A stretch of 44,113 nucleotides of DNA from an uncultured Clostridia bacterium (GTDB lineage Bacteria > Bacillota_I > Bacilli_A > RF39 > UBA660), in contig CAMUZE010000011.1 in NCBI GenBank assembly GCA_947165135.1, positions 1-44,113 on the forward strand, written 5' to 3'. Under the pieces are notes generated by a model. It was not told where the DNA came from, did no database searches, and was given only the letters and a program-made list of their open reading frames with translations. The translations under genes were made by a program, and so were the position numbers. Shown here in pieces: positions 10,528 through 38,736 of the stretch. The first letter of the stretch is position 1, and each line of letters opens with the position of its first letter.

Positions 10528-12318
10528 ATGAGCGATAAAAGTAGAAAAATAGTAATTGCAATTCTTTTGGTATTAATAATTATTTGCATTTTTTGTTATT
10601 TTTATTTTAAAGGACAAAAAACTTATACAATTTCTTTCGATACTGATGGAGGAACAGCAACTTCGGCAATAAATGTAAGAAATGGGAACAAAATTGCAAA
10701 GCCAGCAGATCCCACAAAAGAAGGATATGAATTCGTAGAATGGCAACTAAATGGAAAAACATATAATTTTGATACTCCAATTGTTGGAAATGCTACATTA
10801 ACCGCAGTATGGAGAGAAGTATCAGTTGAAGAAGAGACATTTGTTGTTAGATTTGATACTGATGGAGGAAGTATATTAGTAAATCAACATGTTAAGCCAG
10901 GTGAACAAGCAACTTTACCAGAAACTCCAACTAAAGAAGGCGATGATAAGGTTAAATATACATTTGTAGAATGGCAGTCAAATGGTAAAAAATATGATTT
11001 CTCAACTCCGGTAACAAGTAATATAACATTAACAGCAAAATGGGGTGAGGAACAAATAATAGAAAAATTTACTATAACATTTGATACTGATGGAGGCTCA
11101 GCAGTGAAATCACAGACCATAGGAACTGGTAAAAAGGTTACTAAGCCAACAAATCCAACAAAGAAAGGATATGTATTCGTTGAATGGCAATTGAATGAAG
11201 AAGCATATGATTTTTCAACTCCGGTAACAAGTGATATAACATTGACAGCAAAATGGATTGATGAAGCCTCAGTAGAAAAATTCACAGTAACATTTAATAC
11301 TAATGGTGGTTCAGTGGTAAATGTACAAACAGTTATCAAGGGAGCTAAGGCTACTAAACCAGCAGATCCAACAAAAGAAGGATATGCTTTTGTAGAATGG
11401 CAATTAAATGGAAAAACTTATAATTTCAATACAGTAGTAACAAGTAATATAACATTGACAGCAAAATGGAATCAACAAAAGTACACAGTAACATTTAATT
11501 CAAATGGTGGTTCAGCAGTAAGTTCACAAACTATAAATAGTGGGGCTAAGGCTACTAAACCAACAAATCCAACAAGAGAAGGATATATATTTGTAGAATG
11601 GCAGTTAAATGGAAGTGCATTCAACTTTAATACTGCAATAACAAGTAATATAACATTAATAGCAAAATGGAACCAAAATACAACGCCAAAGTATAAAGTA
11701 ACATTTAATTCAAATGGTGGCTCAACAATTAATGCACAATTGGTAGTTAAAGGAGCAACTGCAATAAGACCAGCAGACCCAACAAGAAGTGGCTATACAT
11801 TTGTAGAATGGCAATTAAATGGAAGTGAGTTCGACTTTAATACAGTAATAACAAATAATATTACACTAACAGCGAAATGGGAACAAAATGCTGTTCAAAA
11901 GTATACAGTAACATTTAATTCAAATGGAGGCTCATCAGTAAGTTCACAAACTGTAAATAGTGGAGCAAAGGCTACTAAGCCAACAAATCCAACAAAAGAA
12001 GGACATACATTTGTAGAATGGCAATTAAATGGTAGTGCATTCAACTTTAATACAGCTATAACTAGTAATATAACATTAACAGCAAAATGGAATCAAAAGA
12101 CATACACAATTAGAGCTGTTCCAAAGGATGATTTTTCACCATATTTAGATTTATATGTTTATGAAAATGGAACAAAAATATCAGTATATGCATTATATTA
12201 TGCATCTGATGGAGCTAAGTTAAATGGTTTCTCTGAAAATAAAAATACTTTAGAAAGTGCTTACTTAGTACAATTATCAAGTGGTGGTACAAAATTTAGA
12301 GCAAATGTTGTTCAATAG
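10528..12318 (+). CDS. Membrane-anchored surface protein with seven InlB B repeats, 596 aa
   Basis: An uncleaved-looking N-terminal membrane segment (residues about 9-28) is followed by seven tandem repeats of about 65-70 residues. Each has the InlB B-repeat (Listeria-Bacteroides repeat) signature: F-[DN]-[ST]-[DN]-GG, P-x-x-PT-[KR]-x-G, F-x-EW-x-x-NG and N-x-TL-x-A-x-W. Repeats 5 to 7 are the most alike, including at DNA level, which suggests recent duplication. A different domain of about 70 residues closes the protein (TYTIRAVPKDDFSPYLDLYVYENG). No LPxTG-type signal is present, so anchoring is by the N-terminal helix. Such repeats act as extracellular spacers or adhesion modules. The GH5 gene starts ten bases later. 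Confidence 0.88.
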   Translation: MSDKSRKIVIAILLVLIIICIFCYFYFKGQKTYTISFDTDGGTATSAINVRNGNKIAKPADPTKEGYEFVEWQLNGKTYNFDTPIVGNATLTAVWREVSVEEETFVVRFDTDGGSILVNQHVKPGEQATLPETPTKEGDDKVKYTFVEWQSNGKKYDFSTPVTSNITLTAKWGEEQIIEKFTITFDTDGGSAVKSQTIGTGKKVTKPTNPTKKGYVFVEWQLNEEAYDFSTPVTSDITLTAKWIDEASVEKFTVTFNTNGGSVVNVQTVIKGAKATKPADPTKEGYAFVEWQLNGKTYNFNTVVTSNITLTAKWNQQKYTVTFNSNGGSAVSSQTINSGAKATKPTNPTREGYIFVEWQLNGSAFNFNTAITSNITLIAKWNQNTTPKYKVTFNSNGGSTINAQLVVKGATAIRPADPTRSGYTFVEWQLNGSEFDFNTVITNNITLTAKWEQNAVQKYTVTFNSNGGSSVSSQTVNSGAKATKPTNPTKEGHTFVEWQLNGSAFNFNTAITSNITLTAKWNQKTYTIRAVPKDDFSPYLDLYVYENGTKISVYALYYASDGAKLNGFSENKNTLESAYLVQLSSGGTKFRANVVQ

Positions 12319-12328
12319 GAGAATTAAT

Positions 12329-15300
12329 GTGAAGAAGTTTAATTATATAGCATTTGTTTTAATATTTATAACAGCATTAATAGTAAGAATTAATGCAGCA
12401 ACAACATCATATAATGATATACCAAATAACAGTTATGTTATAGGTACTCATTTATATACAAATGAAGTACCTTTAACAATAAAACATATAATGTTAGCAT
12501 CAAATACAATAGAGGGAAATACTCTAAGCGATATGAAACTATATTATAAGACATCAAGAGGAAAATGGATAGATGGATTAACAGGTGAAGAAAAAACTCA
12601 CCTTTCTTCATATACAATAAATTATAGAAATTCAGAAACAACTAGTACATATTATGAAAATACTAATACAAATGAAATAGATAAAAATGATATACCAAAT
12701 AATAGTTATGTTATAGGTAGTCATTTATATACAAGTGAAATGCCATTAACAACAAATCATATAATGTTGGCATCGAGAACAATAAGCGAAAATAGACTAA
12801 GTTATATGAAAATTTATTACAAAACATCAAGAGGAAAATGGATAGATGGAGTAAGTGGAGAAGAGGTAACAGTATCAAATAGCATTAATATTAGTCATAT
12901 TAATTTAGAACAGGTTACAAAACAAGCGGGTTATATAACATTAAACGAAACAAAGAAAACAATAACATATGGAACGAATACAGTAACATTTAATGTAGTT
13001 AGTTCACATGGGGGAACAATAAGTGTAGTAGATAATAATAGTACTTCAACAATAACAAAAGATGGAAATACAATAACAGTAAGTAATTTAAGAACAATAG
13101 ATGCAGGAACAACAATAACAGTAACAGTAAGAAGTGCAGAAACCAATGCGTATACAGAAGCAAGCACTACATATTTAATAACAATAAATAAAGCAGATTC
13201 TATTTGTCCAACAGTAACTGAATATAGTGGAACATATGATGCAAAGGAACATACAGTAACGGTAAGTGGAGGATCAGGTGGAACAATAAAATATGAAAAG
13301 AGTACCAACGGTGGCACTACATATACAGACCAAGATACAACTAACCCAGTAAGAAAAAGCGCAGGAACAACATATATAAGAGTACGTATTGAGGGAGATA
13401 ATAATCACAATGATAAGACATGTGATACAAAAACTATAACGCTTGCAAAAAGAGAAGTAACAATAAAAGCAAGTGACCAAAGCAGGACATATGATGGAAC
13501 TGCTTTAGAAGCTGATTCAACATGTGAAATAACAAGTGGTATTGTAGTAAGTGGACACACATTATCATGTACAAATACAGGAAGCCAAACAGAGGTAGGA
13601 AGTAGTACTAAGACACTATCAACAATACAAGTAATGAGTGGAAGTTCTGATGTAAGTAGTAACTATACAATAACAAAAACAAATGGAACATTAACAGTTA
13701 ATCCAAAGAGCTTAGCAGTCTCTTGGGGAACTTTAACATGGACATATGATGGAAACGCACATTCAACAACAGCAAGTGTAACAACAGGAGTAAGTGGAGA
13801 AACAATGAGTGTTTCAATAAGTAATAATAGTATTACATATAAAGGAACACAGGCAGTAACAGCTTCATGTGGAAGTGTAAGTGGAGGACAAGCAAAGTGT
13901 GCAAACTATACACTAACAAATACAGGGAAGACATTAACAGTAAATGCAAAAGCAATAACAATAACAGCAAAAGCACAAGAAGTAACATATGGAACAGCAA
14001 TATCAAAGACAACGTCTGATGTAACAGTGGCAACATTAGGAAGTGGAGATTCATTAACGGCAATAACATTAACAGAGTCAACAAGTAATGCAACAACATC
14101 TGGAACAATAACACCAAGTGCAGCAACAATTAAAAAAGGAACAACAGATGTAACAAGTAATTATAGTATTACATATAACACGGGAGCATTAACAATAAAT
14201 GCAAAAGTATTAACAATACCAAGTAGTCCAGCAGAAAAGACATACACAGGAAGTAGTCAAGGAAGTGGAATAACATGTCCAGCTGGATCAACAGCAAGTG
14301 GAACACAAAGTGCGACAAATGCAAATGAAGGTAGTACAACATATACACAAACATGTACATTAGATTCAACAACAAATTATAAGTGGAGTGATAATACAAC
14401 AACAGCAAAGAATATAACATGGAAGATAAAACCAAAGAGTGTAAGTGTTTCATGGGGAAGCACAACAGAATTTACATATAACGGAAGTGCCCAAGCACCA
14501 ACAGCAAGTGTAACAACAGGAGTAGCTGGAGAGACAATGACAGTTACAAGGACTACACAGACTAATGCAAGTGCAAGCAATTATACATCAACAGCGAGTT
14601 GTTCAAGTGTAAGTGGAGGACAAGCAAAGTGTAGTAACTATACATTAACAGGAAATACAAAAACATATAAGATAAATGCAAAAGCAATAACAGTAAAAGC
14701 AAGTAATCAAAGTAAGACATATGATGGAAGTGCACTAAATGCAGATTCTACTTGTGAAGTAACAAGTGGAAGCTTAGTAAGTGGACACTCTTTAGAATGC
14801 ACAACAAGTGGAAGTCAAATAGATGCAGGAAGTAGTACAAAGACATTAAGTACAGTAAAAGTAATGAATGGAAGTACAGATGTAAGTACAAACTATACAA
14901 TAACAAAACAAAATGGAACATTAACAGTATTAGAAGCTGATATAAATGCATTATATATTCAATACAATGGTAATGGTGGAACATGGAATAATCCAGTTAA
15001 TGATACTTATGGAGTTAATGAGAATGGAATGGTAATAAAGAATGCTACTGGAAAAATATATGTCGATAGCCATAGTGCTAATGATCAAAGCATTAATTTA
15101 ATTGATTACAATGGTGAATATTTAAATTGGCGAAAAAGTAATGCGGGAGTTCCGCCTGAATCCGAATATTATGTATTAAATGAAAGTACAAATGTAAAAA
15201 CATACTTAAATCAAATGAATAATTATTCTGCAGTAGATATAGCTGCAGCTGCCGGATGTAATTTGTCAAATAATAGTTGTACGGTAATTGTTTATGTAAA

Positions 15301-17080
15301 CTGGGAACAATATTTAATTACTGATAATGATTTCTTAAAAACAAGTGGAACAAAATTTGTAAAAGCCGGAACTGATACAGGTATTGTACTAAGAGGATAT
15401 AATATTGGAGAGTGGTTAAGTAGAGCTATTTCACTTTCTCCAATGGAAAATGCGCATGTTGCTTTTGATACTTCAAATTTTCCAACTCCATACACGAATC
15501 TAAGTTCTGCTTATTGGAGAGAATATGCTGATAATGATATACAAATCAACTACATTCTTTATAAACGCTTTGGTAAAGACGGAGAATATAATCTTAATAA
15601 TATTTATTATAAAAACTTTATTACCGAATCTGATATAGAAAAAATGCAGGAAATAGGAATCAATGCTGTTAGAGTCCCTTTAGCATGGAGCTATTTTGTT
15701 GATATGACATATATCGAGCCAAGCGCTCCTATAACAATTACTTCATCTACTAAACCCTCAGATATGAACGCTTATAAATATTCATATACTATGTTAACTG
15801 GCGATAGATTGAATCAGAGATTAGAATATCTTGATTGGATTGTTCATGAGTGTAGAAAACGTGGTATATATGTAATATTTGATTTGCACGTTGTTGATGG
15901 TGGCCAAAGTGATTATGGTATTAGACCTGCTAGAGGATTTACTTTCTATGATGATCAAAATGCTCAAAATAATGCAATAGATATTTGGAAAATTGTTGCA
16001 AGAAGATTTAATGGCAATCCAGGTGTTGCGGGATATGAGTTATTAAATGAACCATCTTCTGGTATTGGGTCGGATGGTAACAAATATATTGATAGACCTA
16101 CAGATAGAAATATGTACAGAGATGAGTTAATAAGATTTTATGATATGACATATAAAGCGATAAGAGATATAGATCCTAATCATGTAATAATTATGGAGGC
16201 ACCATATCCTGATTCAAAATCACACCAAGTTTATATGGAAGATTCAAATGGTAATCCTTTATTAACATTACCAACAGAAAGCGAAAGAACAAATGGTATC
16301 ACAGATACATCTATATGCCCAGCTACACAGTGTAAATGGACTAATGTAGCATATTCTTTGCATGATTATTTCTTCTGGTCTAATAGTGTTAATATAATAA
16401 AAAATGATATTCAATCAAAAGTAGCAGCTGATGTTAGAGATATGAAAAAGTATAATGTTCCAATTTATATTGGAGAAACAAATTTTACTTATACAGGTGA
16501 TAATGAAGAATTAGATGAAGAAGTTATCAATAGTTCATGGAATTATGCATTAAAGCAGTATGATAATAATTTATTTAGTTATACTTTTTGGTCATATAAA
16601 GTTGCAAAATCATTTAGATTTGGAATGGTTTATAATTTAAGATGGAATTATAAAAATCAATCAATGGCTCTTCTTTTAACAGATGATTATGATACTATTG
16701 CAAACAAATGGTCAATGAATGAAACAGATGCACATTATGACTATGTTACAACATATGTTAATATTTTAAAAAATAATTTTATTAATAATTCTGATAAACC
16801 GATTATTAATAATTCAGCATATACTTGTACTTCTGGTCAAGAACTTATTTCTTCAATTAAAGTATTCTCAAGAGATGGAAGTGTTACAATTGATAATGTT
16901 AAAACTAATAATTCTAGCATTGCAGATGTTTCATTTATAGATCCAACAGGAGTAATATGTACAAGTTCATCATGTAAAACAATTAAAATTACATGTAAGA
17001 CTTCTGGAACTGTAACTTTGACGGCAACTGCGAGTAATGGTGCAACAGGAACGTCAACAATTACAGTTTCAAACAATTAG
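12329..17080 (+). CDS. Secreted multidomain protein with a GH5-family glycoside hydrolase domain, 1583 aa
   Basis: GTG 12329 is chosen because AGGAGA (12317-12322) fits it and a signal peptide follows directly (hydrophobic to about residue 19, AxA-like RINAA). Two copies of a 50-60 residue module (about 30-88 and 121-178) share YVIGxHLYT and YYKTSRGKWIDG. MBG/YDG-like beta modules follow to about 865. The catalytic domain (about 1000-1490) has RGYNIGEWL, INAVRVPLAWS, FDLH, LLNEP (acid/base E1241), LHDYFF and IGETNF (nucleophile E1383), the GH5 order. A bacterial Ig-like domain ends the chain. Length suggests a cell-surface beta-glucan or mannan hydrolase. Codon use shifts from A-ending in the modules to T-ending in the GH5 part. 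No sorting signal is seen. Confidence 0.88.
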   Translation: MKKFNYIAFVLIFITALIVRINAATTSYNDIPNNSYVIGTHLYTNEVPLTIKHIMLASNTIEGNTLSDMKLYYKTSRGKWIDGLTGEEKTHLSSYTINYRNSETTSTYYENTNTNEIDKNDIPNNSYVIGSHLYTSEMPLTTNHIMLASRTISENRLSYMKIYYKTSRGKWIDGVSGEEVTVSNSINISHINLEQVTKQAGYITLNETKKTITYGTNTVTFNVVSSHGGTISVVDNNSTSTITKDGNTITVSNLRTIDAGTTITVTVRSAETNAYTEASTTYLITINKADSICPTVTEYSGTYDAKEHTVTVSGGSGGTIKYEKSTNGGTTYTDQDTTNPVRKSAGTTYIRVRIEGDNNHNDKTCDTKTITLAKREVTIKASDQSRTYDGTALEADSTCEITSGIVVSGHTLSCTNTGSQTEVGSSTKTLSTIQVMSGSSDVSSNYTITKTNGTLTVNPKSLAVSWGTLTWTYDGNAHSTTASVTTGVSGETMSVSISNNSITYKGTQAVTASCGSVSGGQAKCANYTLTNTGKTLTVNAKAITITAKAQEVTYGTAISKTTSDVTVATLGSGDSLTAITLTESTSNATTSGTITPSAATIKKGTTDVTSNYSITYNTGALTINAKVLTIPSSPAEKTYTGSSQGSGITCPAGSTASGTQSATNANEGSTTYTQTCTLDSTTNYKWSDNTTTAKNITWKIKPKSVSVSWGSTTEFTYNGSAQAPTASVTTGVAGETMTVTRTTQTNASASNYTSTASCSSVSGGQAKCSNYTLTGNTKTYKINAKAITVKASNQSKTYDGSALNADSTCEVTSGSLVSGHSLECTTSGSQIDAGSSTKTLSTVKVMNGSTDVSTNYTITKQNGTLTVLEADINALYIQYNGNGGTWNNPVNDTYGVNENGMVIKNATGKIYVDSHSANDQSINLIDYNGEYLNWRKSNAGVPPESEYYVLNESTNVKTYLNQMNNYSAVDIAAAAGCNLSNNSCTVIVYVNWEQYLITDNDFLKTSGTKFVKAGTDTGIVLRGYNIGEWLSRAISLSPMENAHVAFDTSNFPTPYTNLSSAYWREYADNDIQINYILYKRFGKDGEYNLNNIYYKNFITESDIEKMQEIGINAVRVPLAWSYFVDMTYIEPSAPITITSSTKPSDMNAYKYSYTMLTGDRLNQRLEYLDWIVHECRKRGIYVIFDLHVVDGGQSDYGIRPARGFTFYDDQNAQNNAIDIWKIVARRFNGNPGVAGYELLNEPSSGIGSDGNKYIDRPTDRNMYRDELIRFYDMTYKAIRDIDPNHVIIMEAPYPDSKSHQVYMEDSNGNPLLTLPTESERTNGITDTSICPATQCKWTNVAYSLHDYFFWSNSVNIIKNDIQSKVAADVRDMKKYNVPIYIGETNFTYTGDNEELDEEVINSSWNYALKQYDNNLFSYTFWSYKVAKSFRFGMVYNLRWNYKNQSMALLLTDDYDTIANKWSMNETDAHYDYVTTYVNILKNNFINNSDKPIINNSAYTCTSGQELISSIKVFSRDGSVTIDNVKTNNSSIADVSFIDPTGVICTSSSCKTIKITCKTSGTVTLTATASNGATGTSTITVSNN

Positions 17081-17088
17081 TTTAATTA

Positions 17089-17120
17089 AAAATGATAGAT
17101 AATTATTTATCTATCATTTT
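17089..17120. terminator. Bidirectional terminator between the GH5 gene and tetR
   Basis: AAATGATAGATA / TATCTATCATTT stem with A/T runs on both sides; it closes the GH5 gene on the plus strand and overlaps the end of the TetR gene on the minus strand. Confidence 0.8.
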
Positions 17121-17714
17121 TTTAATTTCATTAAATAGGATTGGTTTATATTTGTCTATTGATAAAGGTATATCATTTAATATTGAATCATAACAAGTAC
17201 TACTTATTAATTCAATTATCATAAATAATGTAGCTTTTGCATTCTTAATTTTACTATTATATGATTTTAATTCTTTTTCAAGAATATCTCTAACATTTTT
17301 ATATTGTTCTTGATATTCATCTACTAATGAATCATTATAGATTCCTAAGGATAGATTTCTACCAATAAATTTTAATAATTCTTTATTTTCAATAAAAGCA
17401 TTAATTATATAATCAGCTATATCTAATATTTTTTCTTTAAAAGATTTAATTCTTTTATTATTTGAGTAAATCATTGCTTCATCAAATAATAAGTATGATC
17501 TTTCTATTATTAATTTTTCATATATATCCCATTTATCTATAAAATATAAATAAAATGTTCCTTTAGCAACTCCGGCATTATCTGTAATATCACTAATTGA
17601 TGTTTTGTGAATACCTTTTCTCATAAATAGATTATATGCAGATGCTAAAAGATTTTCTCTTTTTTCTAACTTATTTTCTTCTATTTTTGTCATTTCAGTA
17701 TCGAAATTATCCAT
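17103..17714 (-). CDS. TetR-family transcriptional repressor, 203 aa
   Basis: A typical N-terminal helix-turn-helix lies at about residues 20-65 (ENLLASAYNLFMRKGIHKTSISDITDNAGVAKGTFYLYF), followed by an all-helical ligand-binding half. ATG 17714 is preferred to the upstream in-frame ATG at 17768 because GAAAGGAAG lies just before it and because the family normally begins 15-20 residues before the HTH. The gene is divergent from the ABC-F-APH gene. A dyad TGACT-AAA-AGTCA overlaps its own -35, so autorepression is likely; control of the divergent gene is possible but not shown. The ligand is unknown. Confidence 0.9.
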   Translation of the reverse strand: MDNFDTEMTKIEENKLEKRENLLASAYNLFMRKGIHKTSISDITDNAGVAKGTFYLYFIDKWDIYEKLIIERSYLLFDEAMIYSNNKRIKSFKEKILDIADYIINAFIENKELLKFIGRNLSLGIYNDSLVDEYQEQYKNVRDILEKELKSYNSKIKNAKATLFMIIELISSTCYDSILNDIPLSIDKYKPILFNEIKKMIDK

Positions 17715-17739
17715 ATTATCTTCCTTTCGAATGGTCATT

Positions 17740-17768
17740 ATAATAATACTTTTATGACTAAAAGTCAA
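17740..17768 (-). promoter_or_regulatory. tetR promoter with TetR-type operator
   Basis: On the minus strand TTGACT (17763-17768), a 17-base spacer and TATTAT (17740-17745). The dyad TGACT-AAA-AGTCA (17755-17767) overlaps the -35, the standard place for an autoregulatory TetR operator. Confidence 0.65.
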
Positions 17769-17807: not shown

Positions 17808-17827
17808 CTATGGCGAAAGGTGATATT

Positions 17828-17884
17828 ATGTGTGTATATAAGCAAACCGTATTAATTTATACAAGTAATATCACACTTCGTTAG
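17828..17884 (+). CDS. Leader peptide controlling the ABC-F-APH gene, 18 aa
   Basis: Translated short ORF MCVYKQTVLIYTSNITLR with an AAAGG site at 17816-17820. Its role is read from position, not from the peptide: its 3' end lies inside the 5' arm of an intrinsic terminator that precedes the ABC-F-APH gene. The RNA around its own ribosome site and start (GTGATATTA, 17820-17828) is exactly complementary to 17866-17874 (TAATATCAC), which includes the terminator 5' arm. Stalling of the ribosome on this ORF would decide which hairpin forms, as in known antibiotic-inducible leader ORFs of the erm, cat and vmlR type. Confidence 0.7.
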   Translation: MCVYKQTVLIYTSNITLR

Positions 17885-17916
17885 TTCCTTTAAGAAATAA
17901 CAAGTGTGTTTTTTTT
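17866..17916 (+). promoter_or_regulatory. Attenuator of the ABC-F-APH gene
   Basis: Terminator stem CACACTT (17872-17878) / AAGTGTG (17902-17908), extended by TTA/TAA beyond an internal loop, followed by eight T (17909-17916). The alternative pairing 17820-17828 with 17866-17874 takes up part of the 5' arm, so the two structures exclude each other. The coding ATG lies 31 bases after the T run, behind AAAGGAG. Confidence 0.75.
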
Positions 17917-17946
17917 GACGTGCAATAAAATTAAAGGAGAATTATT

Positions 17947-20322
17947 ATGTTAGAAATTAGTTTAAATAAAATAAATAAAAATTATGGATTTAATAAAGTA
18001 TTAAATGATTTATCTTTTGATATAAAAACTGGTGAGAAAATAGCTATAATTGGAAGTAATGGGTGCGGAAAGACTACATTGCTTAGAATTGTTATGGGTT
18101 TAGAAAGTAGTGATAGTGGAAATGTTAGTATAAGAAAAGGTTCCACTATTGGTTATTTATGTCAAATTCCGCCTAAAGAAGATGATAGTGTTATTGCTAA
18201 TGACGTTTATCTAAGAGGTGTAAAAGAATTAATTGAACTTGAAAATAAAATAAACAAATATGTAAGTAATATGAGTTCTTCTAATAAAGAAATATTAGAG
18301 TTATCTAAAATGCAAGAAGAATTTAGAATTAAAGGCGGATATAATCTAAAAGAAAAAGTAGAAAAGATTAAGTATGGATTCAAAATATCAGATGATGTAC
18401 TAAATACAGAATATAATGCATTAAGTGGTGGAGAAAAAACAATTGTTAATCTTGCATCTTTAGTGTTATCTAATCCAGATATACTACTTTTAGATGAACC
18501 TACTAATCATTTAGATATTGATACTTTAGAATGGTTTGAAGATTATTTAAAGAATTACTCAGGTACAGTTTTAATAGTATCTCACGATAGATATTTCTTA
18601 GATAGAGTAGTTAATAAAATAATATGTCTCGAGAATGGCGAAGCAGATATATATCATGGAAATTATTCATATTATTTAAAGGAATCAGAAAAAAGGCTAT
18701 TGATAGAGTTTGAACAATATAAAAATCAACAAAAAAAGATTAAAGCAATGCAAGAAGCTATTGAAAGATATAAAGAATGGGGAGCTAAAAGTGATAATCC
18801 TATATTCTTTAAAAGAGCAAAAGCATTACAAACAAGACTAGATAAAATGGAGAAGATAGATAAACCTGTTGAAAAGAAAGAGCTAAAGATAAAACTAGTA
18901 ACTGATGACAGAAGTGCAAATCATGTTATCACAATTAAGAATTTGAATTTGTCTATTGGAAATAAGGAATTATTAGTATCATCTAATATGGAAGTTAATT
19001 ATAATGAAAGAGTTTGCTTGATGGGAAGAAATGGTACTGGTAAAACTACTTTAATTAAAAATATAATTAATAATCAAAGCGATAATATTATAATAGGCCC
19101 TAATGTTAAAATAGGGTATATACCTCAAGAAGTAAGATTTGAGGATGAAAATTTATCCATTTATGAGCATATGAGAAAAATATTTGTTGGTAGTGAAGGA
19201 GAATTAAGAAGTAAATTATTTCAATTCTATTTCGATTCAGAAGCTATCTTTAAAAAGCTAAAAACTTTAAGTGGTGGAGAAAAAGTTAGAATTAAACTAC
19301 TTGAATTAATATTAAAGCATGCAAATCTATTAATTTTAGATGAGCCTACTAATCATATTGATATTAATACTAGAGAAATATTAGAGTCATCTTTACTTGA
19401 ATTTGATGGAACTATATTGTTTATTTCACATGATAGATATTTTATAAATAGAATTGCTACTAAAATAGTAAGAATCGAAAATAAAAAATTAGTTACTTAT
19501 AATGGTAATTATGATGACATTAAGGATAAAATAGTAGAAAGCGTAGAAAAAATTGAAACTCCTAAAGTAATCACTATAAATGGAAGCAATAGATTAAATG
19601 AGTTTTTAAAAGATGCTAATAGAATAGAAGAAGTAGATATTGCTTGTAATTCTAAGGTATATAAAATTAGAAAGAAAAGTAAAACATTCTATCTTAAAAT
19701 AGCTGATCATTTAAGTAGTGAATCTATGAGATATGATTACCTTAAAGATAAAATAAATATTCCTGAAAAGGTATTTTATGAGAAATATAATGGTAAATCT
19801 TATATTCTTACTAAAGAATTAAGAGGAGAGATGCTATGTAGTGATTATTATATTGAAAATCCATTAAAGGGAATAGATATTATTGTTCAAGCATTTAATC
19901 ATTTATATAATATTGATTACAGTGATTGTATTTTTGATGAAACCATAGATAAGAAAATAAAAGACATTGAAAATAATTTAAGTAATATTAAAAATGAAGA
20001 TATCAACAAAGAAATATTGGGTAGATTTATTACTAAGGAAGCAATTTTAAAATATTTGAAAGGCAATAAACCAAAACAAATAATGGGTTTTATTCATGGT
20101 GATATGTCTTTACCTAATATACTTGCATTAAACAATGAATTTGCTGGATTATTAGATATAGGCTCTTGTGGAATCGGAGATATATATTTTGACTTAGTAA
20201 TATGTGAAATGTCTATCGAGAGAAACTATGGGAAAGAATATATAGACGTATTTTATGATAAACTAGGAATTGAGAAAGATATTTTTAAAAGTGAATATTA
20301 TAGAATACTTATGAGTCTATAA
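17947..20322 (+). CDS. ABC-F ATPase fused to an APH(3')-like aminoglycoside kinase, 791 aa
   Basis: Two ABC domains without membrane segments: Walker A GSNGCGKTT (36-44) and GRNGTGKTT (360-368), LSGGEK at 159 and 441, Walker B LLLDEPTNHLD around 183 and LILDEPTNHID around 465. The charged linker at about 240-320 is where ABC-F proteins contact P-site tRNA. From about residue 541 an APH domain follows: lysine strand TFYLKIA, LYNIDYSDC, the kinase motif HGDMSLPN (H717, D719, N724), GLLDIGSCGIGD (D737), FDLVICEMSI and a C terminus GKEYIDVFYDKLGIEKD, all close in pattern to APH(3')-IIIa. All kinase catalytic residues are present. The stop at 20322 precedes a terminator, so the reading frame is intact. 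Predicted role: ribosome protection plus drug phosphorylation in one chain, induced through the leader attenuator. Confidence 0.92.
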   Translation: MLEISLNKINKNYGFNKVLNDLSFDIKTGEKIAIIGSNGCGKTTLLRIVMGLESSDSGNVSIRKGSTIGYLCQIPPKEDDSVIANDVYLRGVKELIELENKINKYVSNMSSSNKEILELSKMQEEFRIKGGYNLKEKVEKIKYGFKISDDVLNTEYNALSGGEKTIVNLASLVLSNPDILLLDEPTNHLDIDTLEWFEDYLKNYSGTVLIVSHDRYFLDRVVNKIICLENGEADIYHGNYSYYLKESEKRLLIEFEQYKNQQKKIKAMQEAIERYKEWGAKSDNPIFFKRAKALQTRLDKMEKIDKPVEKKELKIKLVTDDRSANHVITIKNLNLSIGNKELLVSSNMEVNYNERVCLMGRNGTGKTTLIKNIINNQSDNIIIGPNVKIGYIPQEVRFEDENLSIYEHMRKIFVGSEGELRSKLFQFYFDSEAIFKKLKTLSGGEKVRIKLLELILKHANLLILDEPTNHIDINTREILESSLLEFDGTILFISHDRYFINRIATKIVRIENKKLVTYNGNYDDIKDKIVESVEKIETPKVITINGSNRLNEFLKDANRIEEVDIACNSKVYKIRKKSKTFYLKIADHLSSESMRYDYLKDKINIPEKVFYEKYNGKSYILTKELRGEMLCSDYYIENPLKGIDIIVQAFNHLYNIDYSDCIFDETIDKKIKDIENNLSNIKNEDINKEILGRFITKEAILKYLKGNKPKQIMGFIHGDMSLPNILALNNEFAGLLDIGSCGIGDIYFDLVICEMSIERNYGKEYIDVFYDKLGIEKDIFKSEYYRILMSL

Positions 20323-36273: not shown

Positions 36274-36739
36274 TTTCTTTATTATCAAAATAAATATATA
36301 CAATTAATAAAATAATAAATAGAATTACAATATTAGGTGTTGCTAAAGTACTATATATATCATAAGACTTACTGAAATTGATAATTATCTTTCCAATTAT
36401 CTGATCATTATTAACTAAATAATCATTATTTGATTCATCATATGCATTGTAATAATGGGAATATCTATCATTAATATCACCAATTTTATACGTATCAAAG
36501 TACCTAAATAAAATAGTATCACCAATATTGTAATTTTCTTTTTTTTCTAGTATTAGTCTATCATTAATATTATATTTTGTAGAAATATTTTCATCTATTT
36601 GAAAAGAAGTATAGTTAATAACATATGCAAAATCTGATTTATTAAAATTAATATAAATTCTACTATAAATTTCTAATAATACAATTACTCCAATTAATAT
36701 AGATAAAACAATTGTAATAAATTTAATTATTTTTTTCAT
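36248..36739 (-). CDS. Membrane protein resembling a degenerate SipW-type signal peptidase, 163 aa
   Basis: Two membrane segments (about 5-25 and 130-150) flank an extracellular domain with the order seen in type I signal peptidases of the SipW/ER type: [33 protein letters not shown] and later [19 protein letters not shown] (compare GDIVVF...NGD.N...D...IIGKV). The catalytic Ser motif (G-x-S-x-x-P) and the Lys or His position are not found, so it looks catalytically dead or is an unrelated fold. ATG 36739 follows AAAAGGAAG. It overlaps glyA tail to tail by 26 bases. Confidence 0.7.
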
Positions 36740-36807
36740 ATTTCTTCCTTTTTTCAAATTATTATAGCATTAATTAGTAAATAATCAAGCACGTTAACCA
36801 TAAAAGG

Positions 36808-36836
36808 TTGACATATACTTCTGCGTATGTTAGACT
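36808..36836 (+). promoter_or_regulatory. Promoter of the ABC exporter leader
   Basis: Perfect TTGACA (36808-36813), a 17-base spacer and extended -10 TGTTAGACT (TAGACT 36831-36836). An imperfect dyad GTTAACC / GGTTGAC (36793-36812) overlaps the -35 and another imperfect one (ACATA / TATGT) fills the spacer, either of which could be an operator. Confidence 0.75.
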
Positions 36837-36869
36837 ATATGTGAATTTAAAGAGAAAGGAGTGGGAAAA

Positions 36870-36956
36870 ATGATAACATTAAATTCAGAAAATTATAATA
36901 AGTGTTTTATAGTAGGAAATGAAAGAAGGGAACTTATCTTTTTCCCAACTTTCTAA
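36870..36956 (+). CDS. Leader peptide controlling the ABC exporter, 28 aa
   Basis: A short ORF (begins MITLNSENYNKC, ends ELIFFPTF) has an excellent AAAGGAG site eight bases before ATG. It lies 49 bases upstream of the exporter ATG, with a terminator between. The codons for Ile-Val-Gly (ATAGTAGG, 36909-36916) are exactly complementary to the terminator 5' region CCTACTAT (36971-36978), and codons 18-28 lie in a second hairpin (36921-36953). Ribosome position on this ORF would choose between the structures. The arrangement resembles the BmrB leader of the Bacillus subtilis bmrCD exporter operon, which is induced by translation inhibitors. Confidence 0.75.
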   Translation: MITLNSENYNKCFIVGNERRELIFFPTF

Positions 36957-36990
36957 ATAACTTTTTAGTGCCTACTATGTAGGCTTTTTA
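36909..36990 (+). promoter_or_regulatory. Attenuator with mutually exclusive hairpins before the ABC exporter
   Basis: Three elements are visible. The terminator GCCTAC (36970-36975) / GTAGGC (36979-36984) is followed by five T. The antiterminator pairs ATAGTAGG (36909-36916) with CCTACTAT (36971-36978), eight bases exact. An intermediate hairpin pairs GAAAG-GGGAA (36921-36932) with TTCCC-CTTTC (36942-36953) through a two-base internal loop. Confidence 0.75.
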
Positions 36991-37005
36991 TTTGGAGGCG
37001 ATTTT

Positions 37006-38736
37006 ATGAAGAATTTAAAAGAATTTAAGCCTCTATGGAAATTTATTAAAGAAGATAGAATTAAAATTATAATCGCAGGTATTATAATCCTTATAACCGA
37101 AATTGCAAATACAATGGGCGGTTATTTGAATGGTATGGTAGTTGAGTCTGCCACTAATTTAGATATAAAGAAAGCATTAACCTATCTTGGAATATACTTA
37201 ACTATTAACATTGTTATTGATGCGTGGTTATACATGAAAAGTTATGCTATGCTACAAAAAGTAGAAAATAAAACATCTAGAAAATTAAGTTTTAACACAT
37301 ATCAAAAAGCAATTAATTTACCTGCATATGCATTTGAAAAGGCATCTTCTGGAGAAATTATTAATAGAATTTCTTCAGATGCAGATTCGTTAAGTTTTAT
37401 ATTTGGAAGAATTATACAAACTATTTCTTCCTTAATTGGAGCTATTATTATACTAATATATATATTTGTTAATTCATATATAATTGGTATAGAAATAATA
37501 TTCTTTATGATATTACTTTATTTAGTTATTAAAAAATTTAATCCAAAAGTTATTAAATTACATAAGGAGCGTAGAAAAGAACAAGATAGATTCGCTTCTT
37601 TAGTTAATGAGTCCATAAGAGGAATAAGAGAAATTAAAACACTTGGTGTTAAGAATAATTTAATTAATAATATTAGAGACATTATTAAAACAATATTTAA
37701 TAAATCTGTAGAAGAAACAGATATTTATGCAAAATATAAAACACTTATTAAAATAATTAGATCATTACTTGAGGCAACAGTATTTGCAACTTGTGTATTT
37801 TTATTATTCAAATCGTATGTTACGCTTGCATATTTCATATCAATAACATATTATGTATATAAATTTATGTATTTAATAGATGAAATAAATGATTTAACGG
37901 AGATGTATCAAAAATTAGTTGTATCTTTAACAAGAGTAAATGAGATACTTGAAAATAGATTATATCAAGATGAAACATTTGGAGATAAAAAGATTAAGAA
38001 TATCATTGGAAAAATTGAATTTAAAAAAGTTAAGTTTAATTATCCTAATGAAAAAGCATTATTAAAAAACTTTAATCTTACAATTGAGCCAAATAAGAAG
38101 GTTGCAATTGTTGGTAAATCTGGCCAAGGCAAATCCACAATATTTAATTTACTTACAAGAATATTTGATTCTAAAAAAGGAATTATTACTATTGATGGGG
38201 TAAATATTAAAGAATTAGATGAAGATGAACTTAGAAAACAAGTATCTATTATTAGACAGGAACCATTTATCTTCAATAGAACAATTTTAGAAAACTTTAA
38301 GTTAATTAATAAGAATATTAAGTTAAAAGATGTTAGAGAATATTGCAAGATGGCATATCTAGATGATTATATTATGTCACTTCCTAAAAAGTATAATACT
38401 ATTTTAGGAGAAGGTGGAGTTAACTTGTCAGGGGGACAGAAACAAAGACTTTCTATCGCAAGAACTTTAGCTAAGAAAAGTAAAATTGTTTTGTTTGATG
38501 AAGCTACTTCTGCTCTTGATAATAATTCACAAGAGTATATTAAGAAATCAATAGATTCACTTGTAAAAGATCATACTGTAATTATTGTCGCACACAGATT
38601 ATCAACAATAATTGATGCTGACATTATATATGTAATAGATGATGGGCAAGTTGTAGGAAGTGGAACGCATAATGATTTATTATTAAATAATAGTATATAT
38701 AAGAATTTATATGAAACAGAATCTTTAAATTCATAA
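37006..38736 (+). CDS. ABC exporter, fused membrane and ATPase domains, 576 aa
   Basis: Half-transporter that works as a dimer in the membrane. About six membrane helices in residues 15-310 are followed by the nucleotide-binding domain: Walker A GKSGQGKST (370-378), signature LSGGQ (474-478), Walker B VLFDEATSALD (D498, E499) and H-loop AHRLST (H530). All ATPase residues are present, so a homodimer is possible; no partner gene is next to it. Start has TTTGGAGG. Substrate is unknown; its control by a translated leader suggests an antibiotic or peptide exporter. A terminator follows the stop codon. Confidence 0.92.
   Translation: MKNLKEFKPLWKFIKEDRIKIIIAGIIILITEIANTMGGYLNGMVVESATNLDIKKALTYLGIYLTINIVIDAWLYMKSYAMLQKVENKTSRKLSFNTYQKAINLPAYAFEKASSGEIINRISSDADSLSFIFGRIIQTISSLIGAIIILIYIFVNSYIIGIEIIFFMILLYLVIKKFNPKVIKLHKERRKEQDRFASLVNESIRGIREIKTLGVKNNLINNIRDIIKTIFNKSVEETDIYAKYKTLIKIIRSLLEATVFATCVFLLFKSYVTLAYFISITYYVYKFMYLIDEINDLTEMYQKLVVSLTRVNEILENRLYQDETFGDKKIKNIIGKIEFKKVKFNYPNEKALLKNFNLTIEPNKKVAIVGKSGQGKSTIFNLLTRIFDSKKGIITIDGVNIKELDEDELRKQVSIIRQEPFIFNRTILENFKLINKNIKLKDVREYCKMAYLDDYIMSLPKKYNTILGEGGVNLSGGQKQRLSIARTLAKKSKIVLFDEATSALDNNSQEYIKKSIDSLVKDHTVIIVAHRLSTIIDADIIYVIDDGQVVGSGTHNDLLLNNSIYKNLYETESLNS

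Follow-up and report, generated by a model that had tools for sequence, protein, structure and literature searches.

Expression of the stand-alone ABC exporter encoded at positions 37006 to 38736 is most probably (we put the probability at roughly 0.84) controlled by a ribosome-mediated transcription attenuator, which would turn on exporter transcription once ribosomes stall during initiation on a short leader ORF or shortly afterwards. The DNA under study, in the following called the window, is the whole stretch of 44,113 nucleotides that was analysed; it is contig 11 of an AT-rich genome of 1.24 Mb. The leader (36808-37006) carries a single sigma-70 promoter and, together with its surroundings, comprises the following elements:

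36793-36812, plus strand: inverted repeat GTTAACCATAAAAGGTTGAC, overlapping the -35 box; candidate repressor operator
36808-36836, plus strand: promoter of the sigma-70 type, TTGACA-17-TAGACT (-35 box TTGACA 36808-36813, 17-nt spacer, -10 box TAGACT 36831-36836), extended -10 with TG before the box; sequence scan
36843-36850, plus strand: S, conserved 5' segment GAATTTAA, complementary to 36879-36886; tentative
36855-36861, plus strand: Shine-Dalgarno sequence of the leader ORF, AAAGGAG, as read from the sequence
36862-36870, plus strand: A, leader start region TGGGAAAAA, pairing with C as anti-antiterminator (OFF clamp); MFE fold and covariation
36870-36956, plus strand: leader ORF of 28 codons, MITLNSENYNKCFIVGNERRELIFFPTF and a stop codon; conserved open in frame 0
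36879-36886, plus strand: S', TTAAATTC, complementary to S; tentative
36909-36916, plus strand: D, 5' strand of the antiterminator, ATAGTAGG, at leader codons 14-16; pairs with 36971-36978
36921-36932, plus strand: B, GAAAGAAGGGAA, decoy of the start region, forming a local hairpin with C inside the antiterminator
36939-36954, plus strand: C, TTTTTCCCAACTTTCT, 3' end of the ORF, whose partner is A (OFF) or B (ON)
36970-36989, plus strand: E:F, intrinsic terminator GCCTAC-TAT-GTAGGC + TTTTT, with the stem-loop at 36970-36984 followed by the T-run
36994-36998, plus strand: Shine-Dalgarno sequence of the exporter, GGAGG, 3' of the terminator, as read from the sequence
37006-38736, plus strand: stand-alone ABC exporter of 576 amino acids with ABC_membrane and ABC_tran domains (Pfam), P-glycoprotein/MsbA type

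A preliminary description of this region had already listed the promoter, the 28-codon ORF with AAAGGAG, the antiterminator pair and the terminator, all of which were found in place when the sequence was re-examined. It did not contain the clamp, in which 36862-36870 and the extending segment 36853-36858 pair with 36939-36947 and 36949-36954, respectively, and which is part of the MFE fold, nor the inverted repeat at 36793-36812 across the -35 box. D is complementary to CCTACTAT at 36971-36978, which is the 3' strand of the antiterminator and lies within E. The terminator begins 13 nt past the stop codon of the leader ORF, and no other terminator-like site occurs in 36700-37100, where shuffled sequences would give 0.1. 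A promoter scan of the window yielded no candidate in the interval from the terminator to the start of the exporter gene; such a promoter had been put forward as counter-evidence to the attenuator.

According to the model, transcription would start just 5' of the leader ORF. In the OFF state, A would pair with C, or a closely following ribosome would cover D; in either case, E:F could form and RNA polymerase would terminate ahead of the exporter gene. If a ribosome is halted on the start codon or within the first approximately eight codons, it would cover A and leave D free, so that C would pair locally with B, D would pair with E around the B:C hairpin, the terminator would be blocked and the exporter would be transcribed. 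The sensed quantity would thus be the position of the ribosome, with no particular peptide being needed. The leader possesses the class features of uORF transcription attenuators: a terminator lies between the ORF and the target gene, and the D:E pairing is mutually exclusive with the terminator and covaries. Furthermore, the ORF is conserved in frame, is preceded by a Shine-Dalgarno sequence and is presumably translated, and the fold is predicted to change with ribosome position.

The leader is not confined to the window. A DNA search within the genus turned up six more genomes with this leader, and a degenerate pattern for the 5' block had matches in 10 of 291 family genomes and in 8 of 150 genera; the genomes drawn in a separate order-level pattern search all came from within the family. 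When 84,980 GTDB species were scanned with a stricter pattern, 58 stretches were obtained, 36 of which are true leaders with an ORF of 21-36 codons. The other approximately 22 matches were rejected as chance matches, since most of them open long unrelated genes. The 36 true leaders and the window form the set of 37 leaders analysed here. Nearly all of the 36 further hosts are uncultured gut or rumen Bacilli, and many isolate names point to rumen or gut; the deposited taxa are Bacilli, Erysipelotrichaceae, Erysipelotrichales and Tenericutes and, less often, Clostridia, Bacillales, Lactobacillales and other Firmicutes. Wherever the downstream gene can be read, it encodes the same stand-alone ABC exporter, with 42-95% identity to that of the window. 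Within the genus, the leader precedes every one of the eight exporter orthologues with at least 45% identity and none of the inspected exporters that are more distant (38% identity or less), an association that also supports the attenuator. A covariance model of the leader (R1), which relies mostly on sequence, matched the window alone in its own genome, thus no paralogous leader was found there.

The terminator is present in 36 of the 37 leaders and overlaps the end of the ORF in a few relatives only. The pairings were assessed with an alignment-free partner-swap test, in which each segment is scored by its best ungapped helix with its own partner or with the partners of other leaders over 5000 permutations. 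Not one of the 5000 permutations was as good as the true partners for D:E (own 18.95 versus swapped 13.67; 37 leaders), A:C (26.97 versus 21.25; 37 leaders) and B:C (16.7 versus 14.2; 35 leaders). The same holds for S:S', albeit with a small effect (15.5 versus 14.7; 35 leaders), and this pairing is regarded as tentative. These results argue for the attenuator, S:S' contributing weakly, and the paired segments proposed in the preliminary description have thus strongly passed the covariation check. D:E is made up of 34 distinct helices among 35 leaders and has at least seven contiguous pairs in 32 of the 35, as in GATAAGAGT:ACTCTTATT (L073), ATTATGTAGT:ACTACATAAT (L075), ACAAGTGGTTT:AAGCCATTTGT (L055) and AGCAGTAA:TTACTGCT (L026). 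It is weak in L047, L054 and L060; in L051, which was set aside by the script, ATTGGTAGC and GCTACCAAT pair by eye. Where the sequence first varies past GGAGTG, the A:C helix has an A-U pair in 16 leaders, G-C in 13 and G-U in four; the count leans towards pairing because the register was picked by the best helix. RNAalifold reported no pairs on a MAFFT alignment of 35 leaders, since the elements shift in register and are left unaligned by MAFFT. The one leader lacking the terminator, L033 (JAQXHG010000054.1, 7033-7132, minus strand), has also lost the D segment and kept A:C and the local hairpin; such a joint loss is expected if D and the terminator work as a unit, and L033 is perhaps under translational control only.

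The reading frame of the leader is conserved as well. Between the ATG and the end of C, frame 0 is free of stop codons in 35 of 35 leaders, as opposed to none for frame +1 and one for frame +2, and C ends 2-12 nt (once 24 nt) before the end of the stop codon. Judged by these patterns, the leader ORF is a real coding sequence, and the fixing of its end on C is a further argument for the attenuator. A 5' UTR that binds a ligand or protein in the manner of a riboswitch, with the ORF being fortuitous, would account for the conserved GAATTTAAAGAGAAAGGAGTG block and the S:S' stem; however, it would leave the openness of this one frame unexplained, the conserved residues are mainly those of the Shine-Dalgarno sequence and the AUG, and no match to the leader RNA was found in Rfam at gathering or relaxed thresholds, so that we regard this possibility as very remote. 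The motif AGGAGTG is invariant across all leaders, although this invariance is partly imposed by the search pattern.

In contrast to the frame, the leader peptides are not conserved beyond what the RNA pairings impose. The early codons vary freely (ITLNSEN, KNLNFKQ, VKFKFNS, SNKIQFK and NNLYVFD), no shared arrest motif was found among the peptides of the 37 leaders, and the F(F/S/P) that recurs near the end of the peptide results from the complementarity of the RNA to the start region. This makes it improbable that the nascent peptide and a drug together stall the ribosome at one codon, as in ErmCL or the RLR/RYR leaders, even though the ORF is real and stalling by some drugs needs context (PMC9226507). 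An attenuator of the trp/ilv type, in which scarcity of a charged tRNA at the early codons acts as the switch, would have a terminator/antiterminator architecture that is identical in kind; however, codons 1-8, where the stall is predicted, show no conserved amino acid by eye, and the gene under control is one for an exporter rather than for biosynthesis, which leaves this explanation with next to no probability.

The dependence on ribosome position was analysed with thermodynamic folding models, in which ribosome bulk and folding kinetics are ignored. Without a ribosome, the MFE structure of the window leader consists of A:C and the terminator (-30.5 kcal/mol, z = -2.1). When the footprint of a ribosome with its P site at the AUG or at codon 5 is masked, D:E enclosing B:C is predicted and no terminator, whereas the terminator is predicted to form with the P site at codon 14. 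In nascent RNAs of 35 leaders ending before the last terminator arm, D:E reaches a probability above 0.5 in all leaders for codons 1-4, in 86% for codon 7, 49% for codon 9, 3% for codon 12 and none for codons 15-18. Furthermore, a ribosome on the start codon lowers the mean terminator probability by 0.37 when the leaders carry their own terminators and by 0.08 with foreign ones, and none of 10,000 random assignments gave an effect as large. Both the position dependence of D:E and the difference between own and foreign terminators support an attenuator. Replacement of the 5' head by that of another leader raised D:E from 0.07 to 0.22 in the absence of a ribosome, as would fit an A:C helix that is matched to each leader. 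Other model results count against the attenuator, as do the weak D:E pairings of L047, L054 and L060 and the missing terminator of L033. In ribosome-free nascent RNA ending before F, the D:E probability exceeds 0.5 in 69% of the leaders (0.03 in the window), and these leaders would need a rearrangement to terminate. D:E is frequently predicted for a ribosome on the stop codon as well, unless the pairing is prevented by ribosome bulk, and approximately seven leaders (L034, L052, L055, L058, L066, L073 and L077) retain the terminator in equilibrium folding with the start masked.

The preliminary description had stated that the exporter is switched on when ribosomes slow on the leader. A ribosome-dependent switch is supported; however, the models predict a narrower trigger, comprising only codons 1 to approximately 8, since a ribosome on codons 10-20 masks the antiterminator and termination is favoured. 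If ribosome position is what is sensed, natural inducers should freeze ribosomes at initiation or during the first peptide bonds. Predicted inducers would therefore be lincosamides, pleuromutilins, streptogramin A and phenicols, and perhaps macrolides.

Control could also be exerted at the promoter, which is recognizable as TTGAC and a -10-like box in 35 of the 37 leaders. The inverted repeat at the -35 box, GTYAACC-N-GGTTGAC (or GTYAAC-N-GTTGAC), occurs in the window and in 15 other leaders when a loose pattern is applied, and it is likely a repressor operator. That such a repressor provides the main control at initiation, with the leader being secondary, seems very unlikely all the same: more than half of the leaders lack the repeat and keep the attenuator, and no regulator gene was seen adjoining the exporter gene in the window. 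With a presence in only 16 of 37 leaders, the repeat rather qualifies as an accessory element to the attenuator. A similar repeat, TGTCAACCTTTTTTGGTTAACAT, was also seen at another site, near 1500-1525 of L015 in genome G006.

The relatives of the exporter in the PDB are ABCB1 and MsbA. No second ABC gene was found 3' of the exporter gene in the window or in any relative with readable downstream DNA, which suggests that the exporter probably works as a homodimer.

Elsewhere in the window, a leader at 17810-17922 precedes a gene at 17947-20322 for a protein of 791 amino acids of the ABC-F ribosomal-protection type (NCBIfam NF000355, above cut-off), which is divergent from a TetR gene at 17103-17768. 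The protein also has a C-terminal domain resembling APH-type phosphotransferases (APH(3') model, below cut-off), which makes it an unusual fusion. This leader (fold z = -3.05) encodes the ORF MCVYKQTVLIYTSNITLR, followed by a stop codon, whose start region GGTGATATTATG and 3' end AATATCAC pair with each other. It is unrelated in sequence to the exporter leader and shares the start-to-end clamp logic, but its wiring may differ, as a terminator arm (CACACTT) overlaps the clamp. Two large adjoining surface-type proteins, recognized by eye, are encoded at 10528-17080; the first has 596 amino acids with many repeats of the FDTDGG...FVEWQLNGK type, and the second has 1599 amino acids with repeats and a glycosyl-hydrolase-like region.

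The leader RNA is a new family of an already known type of mechanism, given the precedents of vmlR, bmrCD and cplR and the fact that no description of it was found in the accessible parts of two motif surveys. The chances are about even that the more specific description is correct as well, namely that this undescribed RNA family of uncultured gut Bacilli senses initiation-frozen ribosomes independently of peptide sequence, that the 3' end of the leader ORF clamps the start region, with a decoy inside the ORF taking over the clamp when the start is occupied, and that the switch stays OFF when translation is absent or proceeds normally and is turned ON by an early stall alone. With this attenuator, ribosome sensing of the antibiotic type would also cover a stand-alone ABC exporter of gut and rumen Bacilli, which are largely uncultured. 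In addition, the 37 naturally varied leaders, in which the helices change and the function is presumably kept, provide material for studying how an RNA reads ribosome position. If induction were confirmed, the exporters would be probable antibiotic or toxin pumps, and the leader structure could serve as a route to inducible resistance in metagenomes.

The closest parallels are found among known attenuators of resistance genes. In vmlR of Bacillus subtilis, the Shine-Dalgarno sequence of the uORF is part of an anti-antiterminator, which is disrupted by an initiation-stalled ribosome, whereupon an antiterminator with a small apical hairpin forms and the intrinsic terminator is prevented (PMC9226507). 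On paper, the leaders described here follow the same logic, their A:C helix being an anti-antiterminator made with the Shine-Dalgarno sequence of the uORF; the likeness is one of described mechanism and implies no RNA homology. That this logic operates experimentally in vmlR (PMC9226507) lends further weight to the attenuator. However, the uORF of vmlR has three codons (MIN) and its target is an ABC-F ribosome-protection protein (PMC9226507), whereas the ORFs of the present leaders have 21-36 codons, extend over every regulatory strand ahead of the terminator and precede a membrane ABC exporter. In cplR and lmo0919 (vgaL), an anti-SD element likewise pairs with the start of the uORF and stalled ribosomes relieve termination; the uORFs are short (MRI), the targets are ABC-F proteins, and the cplR terminator also sequesters the Shine-Dalgarno sequence of the main gene (PMC10201436), unlike the exporter Shine-Dalgarno sequence here, which lies 3' of the terminator. 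The likeness to bmrCD drawn in the preliminary description is fair as to mechanism, although vmlR and cplR are nearer in RNA logic. In the bmrB-bmrCD system of B. subtilis, a translated leader ORF holds both anti-antiterminator and antiterminator strands upstream of a multidrug-type ABC exporter, and ribosome inhibitors cause transcriptional read-through (PMC4191407). In contrast to the single exporter gene described here, BmrCD is a heterodimeric exporter encoded by two genes, and in bmrB, which is 162 nt long, the terminator lies within the ORF (PMC4191407), whereas the terminator lies past the stop codon in nearly all of the present leaders; a start-region clamp is not described for bmrB (PMC4191407). 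The rli80-hflXr system of Listeria also combines a small ORF over an anti-antiterminator with a terminator ahead of a resistance gene; however, it encodes a 14-amino-acid peptide with an RLR arrest motif and targets a ribosome-splitting factor (PMC6310831). An earlier survey also reported attenuators ahead of ABC transporters, among them an operon for multidrug export in Lactobacillus (PMC2965389).
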